From a virus, in the IMG/VR virus record IMGVR_UViG_3300021962_011626, positions 1 through 27,788 of that record: a stretch of DNA of 27,788 nt. One strand, given 5' to 3'. A program made the position numbers and the translations under genes. Below, piece after piece: positions 20,900 through 27,156 of the stretch. Below the pieces are notes generated by a model that was not told the DNA's origin, did no database searches, and saw only the letters and a program-made list of their open reading frames with translations. Within the stretch, counting starts at the first letter, position 1. Every line of letters begins with the position of its first letter.

Positions 20900-21430
20900 A
20901 TGAGTACTATAAGACTACAATGCACTAACTGCAATACAACCTATACACAAAAACTATCGCAACACAAATACCAGACGAAAAAAGGCAGATTAAATTTCTG
21001 CTCTCGGTCGTGTGGCACATCTTACTATAATAAAAATAAATCAAAAACGCCACAAGCATATGATATATCTATACATGCTTCAAATAGGCGTGATGAGTTT
21101 ACTGGTTTCAGAGAGTTTATAACAAGAATTAATAAAAGAGCTAAGTTGAATAGCAAATTTATAAATCATTTAACTCTCCAAGATTTAAAAGAAGTTTGGG
21201 AAGCTCAAAATGGTATATGCCCTTACACAGGGCTTAAACTAGAGCTTCCCAACATTTCTAAGGTGTCTAAGAATAAACTTGCAAAAGCTTCTTTAGATAG
21301 AATTGATAGCAATAAAGGCTATACTAAGGATAATGTACAGTTTATGTCACCGTATATTAACTATCTAAAAAACGATCTAACTCAAGCTGAGTTTAAATCA
21401 ATACTGCAATTAATCAAAGAACACAACTAA
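20900..21430 (+). CDS. HNH homing-type endonuclease
   Basis: A 176-residue free-standing endonuclease. The N-terminus is a zinc-finger module with Cys8-x2-Cys11 and Cys34-x3-Cys38 (NFCSRSCG). The C-terminal HNH core runs from GICPYTGLKLELP (105-117) through ASLDRIDSNKGYTKDNVQFM (130-149) to INYLKND, giving the Asp133/Arg134/Asp136 cluster, Asn145 and Asn154-Lys157 of HNH nucleases. It is the only plus-strand gene in the window. It ends 2 nt from the tmRNA 3' end and is bracketed by 12-bp copies of that end. This marks it as a mobile element that targeted the tmRNA gene. It probably nicks or cuts DNA to spread itself; the target is inferred from position. Confidence 0.85.
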   Translation: MSTIRLQCTNCNTTYTQKLSQHKYQTKKGRLNFCSRSCGTSYYNKNKSKTPQAYDISIHASNRRDEFTGFREFITRINKRAKLNSKFINHLTLQDLKEVWEAQNGICPYTGLKLELPNISKVSKNKLAKASLDRIDSNKGYTKDNVQFMSPYINYLKNDLTQAEFKSILQLIKEHN

Positions 21431-21434
21431 TATG

Positions 21435-21446
21435 GTGGAGTCGGAG
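21435..21446. repeat. 12-bp direct repeat, right copy, inside the tmRNA 3' end
   Basis: Plus strand GTGGAGTCGGAG, equal to the left copy at 20842-20853. Here it forms the functional 3' acceptor strand of the tmRNA. The HNH stop codon lies 4 nt to its left. Confidence 0.75.
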
Positions 21447-21642
21447 GCATACGATAGCCTCGTCCAAACAGTAATTCAAATTGACTCGTTCACAAGCTTA
21501 GTAAGTTTTTCTAAACTAACAAAATATCAAGTTTGTAATTGTACTCCCACTTGCAACCCGTAGTCTACTTGATTCACGTACCCAAGTAGCAAAAACGTAT
21601 TGTTTGTACCTTTCTGTTCCTAGGATTGGTACCACCCGTTGG

Positions 21643-21717
21643 TTAGGCTGCGATTGCAACTTCACCGCTTACGAAAGACATTGCGTCTTCGAAAGTGAAA
21701 TCAGAGATTTCGTTATT
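21643..21717 (-). other. tmRNA tag-peptide reading frame and stop
   Basis: Reading back from the UAA at 21645-21643 the frame ends SGEVAIAA, matching the hydrophobic -AA end that ClpXP recognises. Upstream codons read NNEISDFTFEDAMSFV without a stop. The resume codon is not certain; by its distance from the PK1-like stem it should be near the Asn-Asn-Glu codons at 21717-21709, which gives a tag of about 22-24 residues. That is longer than the roughly 9-residue tags I recall from Bacteroidota. Confidence 0.6.
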
Positions 21718-21816
21718 TATTGGTGTACTTAGGATATTAAAGTGCTTCCAAAGCTAGCACTGCTTGCATCATCTCAAAGAACTCGCCTGCCTGTCAAAAC
21801 CGGACGACCCCATGAA

Positions 21817-21837: not shown

Positions 21838-22362
21838 TTAATCTTGCAACGGCTTGTATAAAACCATTGGTAGGGCACGTCCTCGCTCATTTGGACCATC
21901 CATTCCGTATCCCCACACCCACTCATTGCCCATGTCAAAGGCGTGTAAATCCACTGGATAAGGACACTTGGACTTTTTCAGAAACACGCACGTTTTAACT
22001 TCTTTAGCGCCATATTGCATAAGCATTTGTGCTAAGAAATCTAAAGTTTTTCCTGAGTCAGCTATGTCATCAAACAGCCAGATTACACGTCCTCTGATAA
22101 GGCTCGGATCCACCATTTTGTAGAGATGAAATTCACCTTGACGTTCTCCTTTATATGAACTTACGCCAACGTAATCAATATAAGGATTAAAGGTGATACC
22201 TCTACAAATGTCTTGAAAAAAAGTTGTAGCTCCTTGTAAGATAGGAACAAATAAAACTTGTTGCTCGTTTTGCTCGTTGTATAGAGCGTTGAACTGTTTT
22301 GTTATGTCTAAAACCTTTTTTTGAATTTCTTGTGATTGTATTAATATGTTTTCCATTTGCAA
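21838..22362 (-). CDS. Purine-type phosphoribosyltransferase
   Basis: A 174-residue type I phosphoribosyltransferase of the hypoxanthine/guanine kind, expected to join a purine base to PRPP for salvage. The PRPP-binding loop is LFDDIADSGKT (96-106), close to the family's DDI.DTG.T. An N-terminal strand-helix VLFVPILQGATTFFQDI (36-52) matches the PPi-loop region, and YIDYVGVSSYKGE (61-73) the following segment. Length fits the family (about 170-185). The start may be Met1 or Met3. The first 161 nt overlap the preceding gene in another frame, and the N-terminal motif is needed for a full domain, so the overlap appears real. Base specificity cannot be told. Confidence 0.82.
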   Translation of the reverse strand: MQMENILIQSQEIQKKVLDITKQFNALYNEQNEQQVLFVPILQGATTFFQDICRGITFNPYIDYVGVSSYKGERQGEFHLYKMVDPSLIRGRVIWLFDDIADSGKTLDFLAQMLMQYGAKEVKTCVFLKKSKCPYPVDLHAFDMGNEWVWGYGMDGPNERGRALPMVLYKPLQD

Positions 22363-24923: not shown

Positions 24924-25637
24924 TTACTCTGATTTATTTTCTGATGCATACTTTACTCCCATTATAGTTCCAACTATACTAAAGGAGTTTGTGAGTAATA
25001 TTCCAATGATATTGGTCCAAGTTGATTCTATGACAGCTACATTCTTACCCGAAAACATAGCCATTAAATAAACAACTGTTGTTATTATTCCAACACCAAG
25101 TATCACCCATAAAGCCACTTTAACTATTTTTCCAATTAAAGCTGTTTGTGATCTTTTTTGCAAAACATCTAAATCATTTAAAGCAGCCTCTTTTGCCTTT
25201 ATTGCTTCATCTTTAGATTTTTCTGCTTCAACCTTGGCCTTCTCTGCTTCTACACGAGCAGCCTGAGCCTCTTCTATTAAGTTGCGATGTCTAGTTTTGC
25301 TAGTAATCATCAACTCTTCGGCAACCTCTTTTGCTTTTATCGCCTCGTTCTTAGAAATTTCAGCCTCATCAAGAGCTCTTGTGAGTTGACGATTTACTCG
25401 ATCATTCTCTTTTTGAGCTATTTCTAATTCTTTATTTTTACTCTGAATTTGTTTTGTAATCTCTAGTCGTCTTTTTCTATTTTGTTTGTCTTTTTCTATA
25501 CAATCACGCAAATAGATTTCAAAATCCTGATCACCCTCAGAATCAACAATCTTTAGAATGTTGCCTTCAAGACATACCTGAGACTCCTCTGCTAATTGAA
25601 GTAACTGCTTGCGTGTATTGGAACCAAACTTGATCAT
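24924..25637 (-). CDS. Coiled-coil protein with two C-terminal TM segments, last gene of the signalling cassette (237 aa)
   Basis: The first 45 residues look globular. Residues about 50-165 are one long charged coiled coil with a repeated unit (SKNEAIKAKEVAEE at 95-108, SKDEAIKAKEAALN at 141-154). Two hydrophobic segments follow (about 171-195 and 208-228), ending GVKYASENKSE. It is probably an inner-membrane protein with its coiled coil in the cytoplasm. The ATG overlaps the response-regulator stop as TAATG, so the two are made together. The most natural guess is an effector acted on by the receiver protein, but no known effector family is recognised. A holin-like role is possible given the endolysin 29 nt downstream. 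Confidence 0.65.
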   Translation of the reverse strand: MIKFGSNTRKQLLQLAEESQVCLEGNILKIVDSEGDQDFEIYLRDCIEKDKQNRKRRLEITKQIQSKNKELEIAQKENDRVNRQLTRALDEAEISKNEAIKAKEVAEELMITSKTRHRNLIEEAQAARVEAEKAKVEAEKSKDEAIKAKEAALNDLDVLQKRSQTALIGKIVKVALWVILGVGIITTVVYLMAMFSGKNVAVIESTWTNIIGILLTNSFSIVGTIMGVKYASENKSE

Positions 25638-26068
25638 TACTTATACACCTTGAATGGTGCTGTTCTACTTTTATATCCTTCAAAATCTTTTTTAAAATCC
25701 TCTAATCGAGGCTCGATATCGTCAGATTTTACAATCCAAAACTGGGCACCAGCTTTAATTGCTTTAGCTTGCTCATTCTCATCTGAACTAGAAGATATTA
25801 TACCTACCACGCATCCATTTCCGTATTCAAAATTAATCTTACGGATCATTTCAATACCATCGTACTTAGATCCAACAATATTTAGATCAACAAACACACA
25901 CTCTGGACGAGTGTCTTTTTTTCTAAAACGTTCTAAGAATATCTTTTCAGCCTCTTCTGTAGAGCTAACACTTTTTAATGACAGTGTAATGTCAAGAAGG
26001 CTACAAGCGTCTTCAAATACAAGATGAAATAAGTTTTCATCGTCAACGAGTAGAATAGAGTCAATCAT
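25637..26068 (-). CDS. Single-domain response regulator (receiver only)
   Basis: A 143-residue CheY-like receiver. Acidic pocket Asp9-Asp10 in LLVDDE, phospho-acceptor Asp61 in CVFVDLNI, conserved Ser92/Ser93 in GIISSSSDE and Lys114 in FWIVKSDD are all present, so it should be able to take a phosphoryl group. There is no DNA-binding or other output domain, so it must act by binding a partner. It overlaps the histidine kinase by ATGA and the coiled-coil membrane gene by TAATG. The partner is probably one of these neighbours. Confidence 0.9.
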   Translation of the reverse strand: MIDSILLVDDENLFHLVFEDACSLLDITLSLKSVSSTEEAEKIFLERFRKKDTRPECVFVDLNIVGSKYDGIEMIRKINFEYGNGCVVGIISSSSDENEQAKAIKAGAQFWIVKSDDIEPRLEDFKKDFEGYKSRTAPFKVYK

Positions 26069-27156
26069 TTTATTTTTATTTTTAGTTTAGTTCCTTTACA
26101 AATAGGGGCATCTGTCGGTTGGAAAAATATCACAGCTTTAGTCCTACCAACTGTAGATAGCCTTGATATAACCTTTCCCTTATAATTATGCTCTTTAGCA
26201 ATCTTTTCAATATTGCTTCGATTATAGATGTAGGATGTCGGACTCCATGCAACCATTTCATCCATACGAACTAAGTCAGCTTCAAAGGTTTCTTGATTAC
26301 CAACCTTCTTTTCGGCAGTAATGCTAAACTTATGTTCATCTAGAATAGCTGTACAGATATTAAGACCCAATCCTGAACCACCCTCCTGCTGTCCCTCTTT
26401 TCGCACATATGGCTTAGAAAGCTCTACAAAATCTTCTTGACTCATACCCCTACCATTGTCTTCTACAATAATAAAGTCTTCCTCTAAATATACTTTAACT
26501 ACTTTGGTTTTACTGTCATTGTACTTCAATCCATTACGAATTAAATTATCAATAGCAGTACAAAATAAAGGCTCATTTATTGTTAGAGTAGGTAGATTTT
26601 CGTTTAAAACAACCTGATCCTTATAAGATGTTAAATCTAAATAATCTTTTAAAGCATCACGAACATTGCATTCTTTTTTAGCTAAGGTAGCTCCTTGCTT
26701 TACCAAATTTGTAAACTCATAAACTCCAGCATAAACTTTTTGAGCATGCCGAACCCCGTCTTGAATAAGTTTTAGTGGAGCTTGTATTTTTAACTCTTCA
26801 ATTACCTTTTCATTTAAACGTCTTTGTAGGGAAGATACTCCTCGAGGAATGTAGGTATTAATTCCAGAATGCATATCATGTCTAATAATCTTAGCAGCAT
26901 GCTCAAGAAATATATTCTTTTTACTCAACTCCACAGCTACCTCTTCTTTCTTTTTAAGAAACTCAAATACAACCATAAAAAAAGGTGGCATAAAAGCAAT
27001 AACGCAGTAATAGCCAAATAAAGCTAGTTTATAGCTCGGACTACACCATCCAAACGCTACACAAGTTTGTACTCCAAAAAACACAAACATAATAAAACCT
27101 GCAATTAGTAACGCAATTTTAGATTTTAGAGATATACCATCCAATGCCTTAGACAT
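26065..27156 (-). CDS. Membrane histidine kinase
   Basis: A 363-residue sensor kinase. Two TM segments (about 13-35 and 43-66) are separated by a very short loop, so there is no extracytoplasmic sensor domain. The dimerisation/phospho-acceptor region carries the H-box AAKIIRHDMHSGINTYIP, with His93 followed by Asp94. The ATPase domain has the N-box AIDNLIRNGLKY (201-211), D-box VEDNGRGMS (231-239) and the G-box GGSGLGLNI (259-267). All catalytic motifs look intact. A C-terminal extension of about 60 residues (300-363) lies beyond the usual kinase end. It overlaps the upstream two-TM gene by TAATG and the response regulator by ATGA. Complete two-component pairs are rare in phages. Confidence 0.92.
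   Translation of the reverse strand: MSKALDGISLKSKIALLIAGFIMFVFFGVQTCVAFGWCSPSYKLALFGYYCVIAFMPPFFMVVFEFLKKKEEVAVELSKKNIFLEHAAKIIRHDMHSGINTYIPRGVSSLQRRLNEKVIEELKIQAPLKLIQDGVRHAQKVYAGVYEFTNLVKQGATLAKKECNVRDALKDYLDLTSYKDQVVLNENLPTLTINEPLFCTAIDNLIRNGLKYNDSKTKVVKVYLEEDFIIVEDNGRGMSQEDFVELSKPYVRKEGQQEGGSGLGLNICTAILDEHKFSITAEKKVGNQETFEADLVRMDEMVAWSPTSYIYNRSNIEKIAKEHNYKGKVISRLSTVGRTKAVIFFQPTDAPICKGTKLKIKIK

Follow-up and report, generated by a model that had tools for sequence, protein, structure and literature searches.

The window, the whole stretch of 27,788 nt analysed here, is a 27.8-kb linear fragment from IMG/VR, in which gene and profile searches identified a baseplate protein, an endolysin and other phage genes. 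A one-piece tmRNA gene (ssrA) of 379 nt lies among them on the minus strand, from 21433 to 21811. A phosphoribosyltransferase gene (21838 to 22362; PF00156, E 5.9e-18) is found just upstream of it on the same strand, and a gene for an HNH/endonuclease VII-like homing-type endonuclease (20900 to 21430) runs convergently on the plus strand, with its stop codon 2 nt from the CCA end of the tmRNA. Response-regulator and histidine-kinase-like genes, unusual for a phage fragment, adjoin at 25637 to 27156 on the minus strand. No smpB gene was found in the 27.8-kb fragment; SmpB is also encoded by some tmRNA-bearing phage contigs (G029, G030, G037 and G039 to G041, with open frames of 203 and 145 aa). 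The phage likely has a Bacteroidota host, because its baseplate protein shares 44% identity with that of Flavobacterium phage immuto and 50% with that of Microcystis phage Mel-JY01, and because a similar AGTTCTTTGAGA stretch occurs in the tmRNA of L217, a locus whose source genome was sampled from the phylum to which an Alistipes MAG belongs.

Parts and relatives of the tmRNA gene

The original prediction placed a tmRNA at this position without giving its strand, and named the lack of a covariance-model hit as what would speak against it. The Rfam model RF00023 matches 21433 to 21811 end to end (model positions 1 to 374) with 59.1 bits, above the gathering score of 47, and an E-value of 5.7e-21. 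ARAGORN, the second program proposed for the check, reported no tmRNA in the window, loosened thresholds included, and this miss is most likely due to a non-canonical T-loop. The 7-bp acceptor with its G-U pair is present as described: the 5' strand GGGGTCG (21805 to 21811) pairs fully with CGACTCC (21437 to 21443), G3-U70 included, and the 3' strand together with the discriminator A and the encoded CCA (21433 to 21443) is seen both in the sequence and in the Rfam alignment. A tag reading frame of 23 codons (21646 to 21714) is closed by TAA (21643 to 21645), and the T-stem is paired in the T-arm GAGG-C-TATCGTAT-G-CCTC (21444 to 21461). The evidence for the fold as a whole is the overall RF00023 alignment. 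The gene resembles the standard Bacteroidota-type tmRNA in its one-piece form, G3-U70 acceptor, D-loop GAC, tag ending in AA-stop and full-length model match, and differs from it in the 23-residue tag, a 5' block seen only in phages, an 8-nt T-loop and the negative ARAGORN result.

Over-threshold tmRNAs (87 to 116 bits with RF00023) were detected in six of 23 contigs encoding the neighbouring phosphoribosyltransferase, each downstream of that gene and on the same strand. A chance origin of the match is excluded, because of its E-value and of these homologous tmRNAs beside the same gene in six related phage contigs. The 5' block CTTTGAGATGATGCAAGCAG (21760 to 21779, minus strand) belongs to the same phage clade; its pattern CTTTGAGATGATGCARGCAG was found in 24 viral stretches, every one at a tmRNA sequence, and a scan of GTDB genomes with a near-identical pattern returned six unrelated matches and no tmRNA. 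By blastn of the tmRNA region no match was obtained among phages. The nearest relative, L164, is about 90% identical by eye over most of the RNA, with sharp divergence in two places, the T-loop and the stretch beyond the acceptor. Past the acceptor the similarity stops; the window continues there with its encoded CCA and the HNH gene, and no HNH homologue is present at the L164 tmRNA locus.

The claim that the gene is phage-encoded is borne out by its position between phage genes and by synteny in other phage contigs. A fragment of host ssrA, or an assembly chimera, in a viral contig was considered, since ssrA often lies at prophage borders and the first pattern scan was dominated by E. coli-type tags. 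Given the same synteny, and a tag, 5' block and T-loop that differ from those of sampled host tmRNAs, we regard its probability as negligible.

Several further arrangements were observed in other phages. In Cellulophaga phage Calle_1 (L189) a phosphoribosyltransferase gene also adjoins the tmRNA, on its 3' side. The 484-kb phage LR756508.1 has a tmRNA-like match at 92434 to 92880 and a second over-threshold match of 112 nt at 414804 to 414915, which is possibly the tRNA-like domain alone. In Maribacter phage Panino (L187) the annotated permuted tmRNA at 1455 to 1787, with a tag ending in RQFA, overlaps tRNA-Asp and tRNA-Thr and is probably a false positive of ARAGORN.

Families of long tags

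The predicted tag is NEISDFTFEDAMSFVSGEVAIAA, whose frame reads VAIAA-TAA at its end, in agreement with the AIAA-stop noted originally. If translation resumes at AAC, the codon which aligns with GAC in L164 (tag DEISDFTFEDAMSFVSGEVAIAA) and GCA in L149, its length is 23 residues, within the 22 to 24 predicted. As anticipated, this is much longer than the tags of Bacteroidota hosts, which have 9 to 10 residues in about thirty sampled tmRNAs.

The tag core TFED[AV]M[AS]F matches 89 viral stretches, most of them confirmed tmRNAs, with 43 distinct core sequences at the DNA level and 20 at the peptide level; the pattern was absent from 395 Bacteroidota genomes. A tblastn search of phage records with the tag gave no match, the query being probably too short. 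Over the 17-codon core, the window and L164 differ by four synonymous and no non-synonymous changes. Among seven TFEDAM cores, that of the window included, whose contigs had been retrieved with the 5' block and not with the tag, pS was 0.53 and pN 0.16, values for which sequence pairs are not independent and some positions are constrained by the peptide pattern. The tag core is under purifying selection.

Long phage tags fall into families. Very long predicted tags of roughly 32 to 45 residues were seen together with 8-nt T-loops in L315, L316, L317, L322 and L343, for example AENYISDLLAEAEYIFNNASEFLGDVVDSVVDFFNGAEQEYALAA, whose resume codon was read by eye. Similar tags also occur on different tmRNA bodies, as in L328 and L139 (EDMMS[IF]..S[IV]TR) and in L322 and L189 (AQIEANM), as if cassettes had been swapped or selected. 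Long tags are known in Mycoplasma and Chlamydia as well, which weakens the idea that the chief novelty here is the long conserved tag, with a middle part that would bind some factor of phage or host and give tagged chains a fate other than degradation. The retained Ala-Ala degron at the C-terminus does not favour it either, and no partner protein of the tag middle was identified. The TFEDAM core is, on the other side, kept across diverse tmRNA bodies, and other phage tags of about 32 to 45 aa include some alike between unrelated bodies. Such a role of the tag is thus conceivable rather than expected, and it is compatible with the explanation of the T-loop that we prefer.

An eight-nucleotide T-loop class in phage tmRNAs

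The original prediction overlooked two features, a recoded T-loop and the adjoining HNH homing-type endonuclease. In place of TTCRANN, the window has an 8-nt loop, C-UAUCGUAU-G (loop at 21449 to 21456), so that neither the canonical 7-nt loop nor detection by ARAGORN applies to it. The T-arm of L164 is canonical, GAGG-GTTCGAATC-CCTC with G-TTCGAAT-C between the stem strands, and the sequence on both sides of the loop is the same as in the window.

An exact-match search with the 22-nt T-arm of the window found nothing. Once the outer stem bases were freed, 45 and then 51 viral stretches were found to carry the window loop, and recent damage unique to the window was therefore rejected. In all 52 TATCGTAT T-arms, the window included, the stem has Watson-Crick pairs at its four outer positions, across nine different stem sequences. 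Where the contig allows, the acceptor partner strand was located upstream (one-piece genes) or 25 to 144 nt downstream (permuted genes), and Rfam confirmed the permuted tmRNA in L314 and L323. An unconstrained scan for 8-nt loops added related loops with a tmRNA partner, which among the matches listed comprise TATCGTAT, TCTCGGAT, TTTCGAAG/T, TATCGTAG, TAGCATAT and others.

A total of 63 unique phage 8-nt T-arms with paired stems were collected, 31 in one-piece and 32 in permuted genes. Over these, loop positions 2 and 6 covary as A-U (43), C-G (16) and U-A (4); the search pattern fixed positions 1 and 7 but put no constraint on this pair. Positions 1 and 7 are also constant in the unconstrained scan among the matches listed, with one tmRNA-like exception, TGAAACAC. 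The consensus of the class is U-X-UCG-X'-A-K closed by C-G. Compared with TTCGAAN, it would contain one additional U, would have the covarying pair instead of 54-58 and would in most cases preserve the UCG core at 55-57. No match to the window loop was found in 299 Pseudomonadota and 296 Bacteroidota genomes, and none to the whole 8-nt class in 150 and 148 of these, respectively.

These results bear on whether the tmRNA of the window is in decay, a relic with its T-loop damaged, for instance, by insertion of the endonuclease next door. Rejection by ARAGORN and a score of 59 bits, below the 87 to 116 of the related phage tmRNAs, fit decay. The loop is, however, common to dozens of phages with compensating changes in the stem, the tag core shows solely synonymous changes against L164, and acceptor, CCA and G-U pair are all intact. 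We rejected a degenerate tmRNA on account of the shared loop and covarying stems, and consider a relic very improbable.

Homing-type endonucleases and the T-loop

The HNH protein matches phrog_3322 (E 1.2e-20), phrog_1035 and phrog_3118, which give it an HNH/endonuclease VII-type domain; Pfam gave no match at E 0.001. In the first set of viral loci its only homologues are in L328 (41% identity) and L353 (35%), both beside TATCGTAT-loop tmRNAs, and later loci yielded further homologues in L383, L392 (TTTCGAAT) and L437 (TCTCGGAT). By tblastn, homologues of homing endonucleases lie within 600 nt of 19 of the 63 8-nt T-arms and of one of 57 canonical ones (Fisher p 1.4e-5). The query enzymes were drawn from the TATCGTAT class, hence we also counted the subclasses not used for query choice, with 6 of 28 against 1 of 57 (p 0.005). 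An earlier form of this comparison, 12 of 32 against 1 of 35, partly used GIY-YIG neighbours read from the sequence, and the tblastn version is preferred. The canonical exception is the phage tmRNA of L188, with an HNH homologue 376 nt away. The Pfam tally of tmRNA neighbours contains one OrfB_IS605 ORF, but TnpB-like genes beside variant tmRNAs were dropped as candidates: the suspected locus, L290, carries a baseplate gene.

The best HNH homologues in the phage record collection come from crAss-like phages. In two Buchavirus genomes, cr56_1 and cr113_1, the tmRNA is permuted and has the TATCGTAT loop, and its intervening sequence contains the HNH gene in antisense orientation. This loop also occurs in cr109_1, together with an apparent truncated HNH remnant; in the congeneric cr60_1 the loop is canonical and the HNH gene is missing at that place. 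In cr6_1 and cr128_1 a group I intron interrupts the T-loop in the acceptor piece of a permuted tmRNA gene (L365, 1424 to 1683, and L364, 1409 to 1678, both minus strand; RF00028, 96.7 and 86.1 bits), and each intron carries an HNH homologue antisense. The family of the window enzyme is thus found both inside T-loop introns and beside tmRNAs with 8-nt loops. The window tmRNA itself has no group I intron: RF00023 is its only Rfam match, and its T-loop is without insert. The combination of permuted gene and intron is absent among the forms counted in PMC11915505, as far as its accessible part goes.

We consider it rather probable that this is a functional tmRNA of the phage, with a T-loop recoded to resist homing endonucleases that target this loop. 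In infected cells the tmRNA would be charged with alanine, join SmpB in entering stalled ribosomes and append the 23-residue tag to stalled chains; the SmpB would come from the host, unless smpB is present in the phage outside the fragment. The C-terminus, a small or hydrophobic residue followed by Ala-Ala, would be recognised by Clp-type proteases and lead to proteolysis; the TFEDAM-FV middle is the conserved, phage-specific part. Ribosome rescue late in infection and a different protease fate of tagged chains, both raised in the original prediction, are plausible. The HNH protein most likely belongs, as a free-standing member, to a family of endonucleases homing into the T-loop of tmRNA genes; it would cut rival ssrA genes at their canonical T-loops, and the carrier would be protected by its recoded 8-nt loop, which the nuclease would be unable to cut. 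In a broader form, which we hold to be an even call, the T-loop would be a battleground attacked by diverse homing endonucleases and group I introns, to which phages answer with a working alternative 8-nt fold.

The loop might instead be an adaptation of the RNA itself, to SmpB, EF-Tu or modification enzymes, or for escape from host nucleases or integrases at the 3' end of ssrA, with endonucleases gathering there unrelatedly. The strong constraint on the loop and its covarying pair, which point to a folded and functional loop, would suit this, and ssrA is a favoured integration site (PMC11915505). Moreover, no recognised endonuclease is near 44 of the 63 8-nt T-arms, whose flanks are often short, and the loop may therefore carry another benefit. 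But adjoining endonucleases are nearly absent at canonical-loop phage tmRNAs (the one in 57 above), the introns tie the window HNH family to the T-loop itself, and loop and HNH change together between congeneric Buchavirus loci. Such an origin is rather unlikely, in our judgement. Recoding against homing endonucleases, which we prefer, leaves one point to account for: a near-identical loop is found again and again next to enzymes of the HNH, GIY-YIG and NUMOD3 types, a likeness that mere evasion of a nuclease would not call for. Most likely the loop is so uniform because the RNA has to preserve its tRNA elbow.

None of the single components is new: phage tmRNAs, long tags, T-loop introns and free-standing homing endonucleases have all been described. 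Among the last, the window enzyme resembles the Seg/Mob type of phage T4 in being a small intergenic HNH enzyme beside a conserved gene, where a presumably resistant form of the target is present; unlike there, the enzyme would be directed at the loop of a structural RNA, and a resistant variant therefore has to preserve the RNA fold as well. The window shares a full tmRNA in a tailed phage with mycobacteriophages and phage G (PMC4131195), the phages of PMC9004378 and the huge phages of PMC7162821. The original view that phage tmRNAs are uncommon does not hold up against the 402 of 18,146 phage genomes in which ARAGORN detected one (PMC9004378). The two larger surveys (PMC9004378, PMC7162821) relied on ARAGORN, which did not recognise the window T-loop. 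T-loop group I introns of bacterial tmRNA, 883 sequences with homing endonuclease genes reported as LAGLIDADG (PMC11915505), have the same target, and the window HNH family resides inside such introns in crAss-like phages; the window differs from what is described there in lacking an intron, in its free-standing HNH endonuclease and in a loop that is recoded, not interrupted. No description of the 8-nt class or its tie to endonucleases was found in the available portions of PMC4131195, PMC7162821, PMC9004378 and PMC11915505, a partial coverage of the literature.

Few parts of tRNA-like molecules are as conserved as the T-loop, and the 8-nt class amounts to a natural experiment that can reveal which properties of the tRNA elbow are required when the molecule is charged, binds SmpB and enters the ribosome. 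A testable reason for the loop change comes from its association with endonucleases and T-loop introns. Phage tmRNAs are undercounted by ARAGORN-based surveys, and the conserved long tags raise the question whether stalled proteins are redirected by phages. If the T-loop is indeed contested in this manner, phages would have evolved an alternative loop that escapes standard annotation and is not seen in the bacteria that were sampled.
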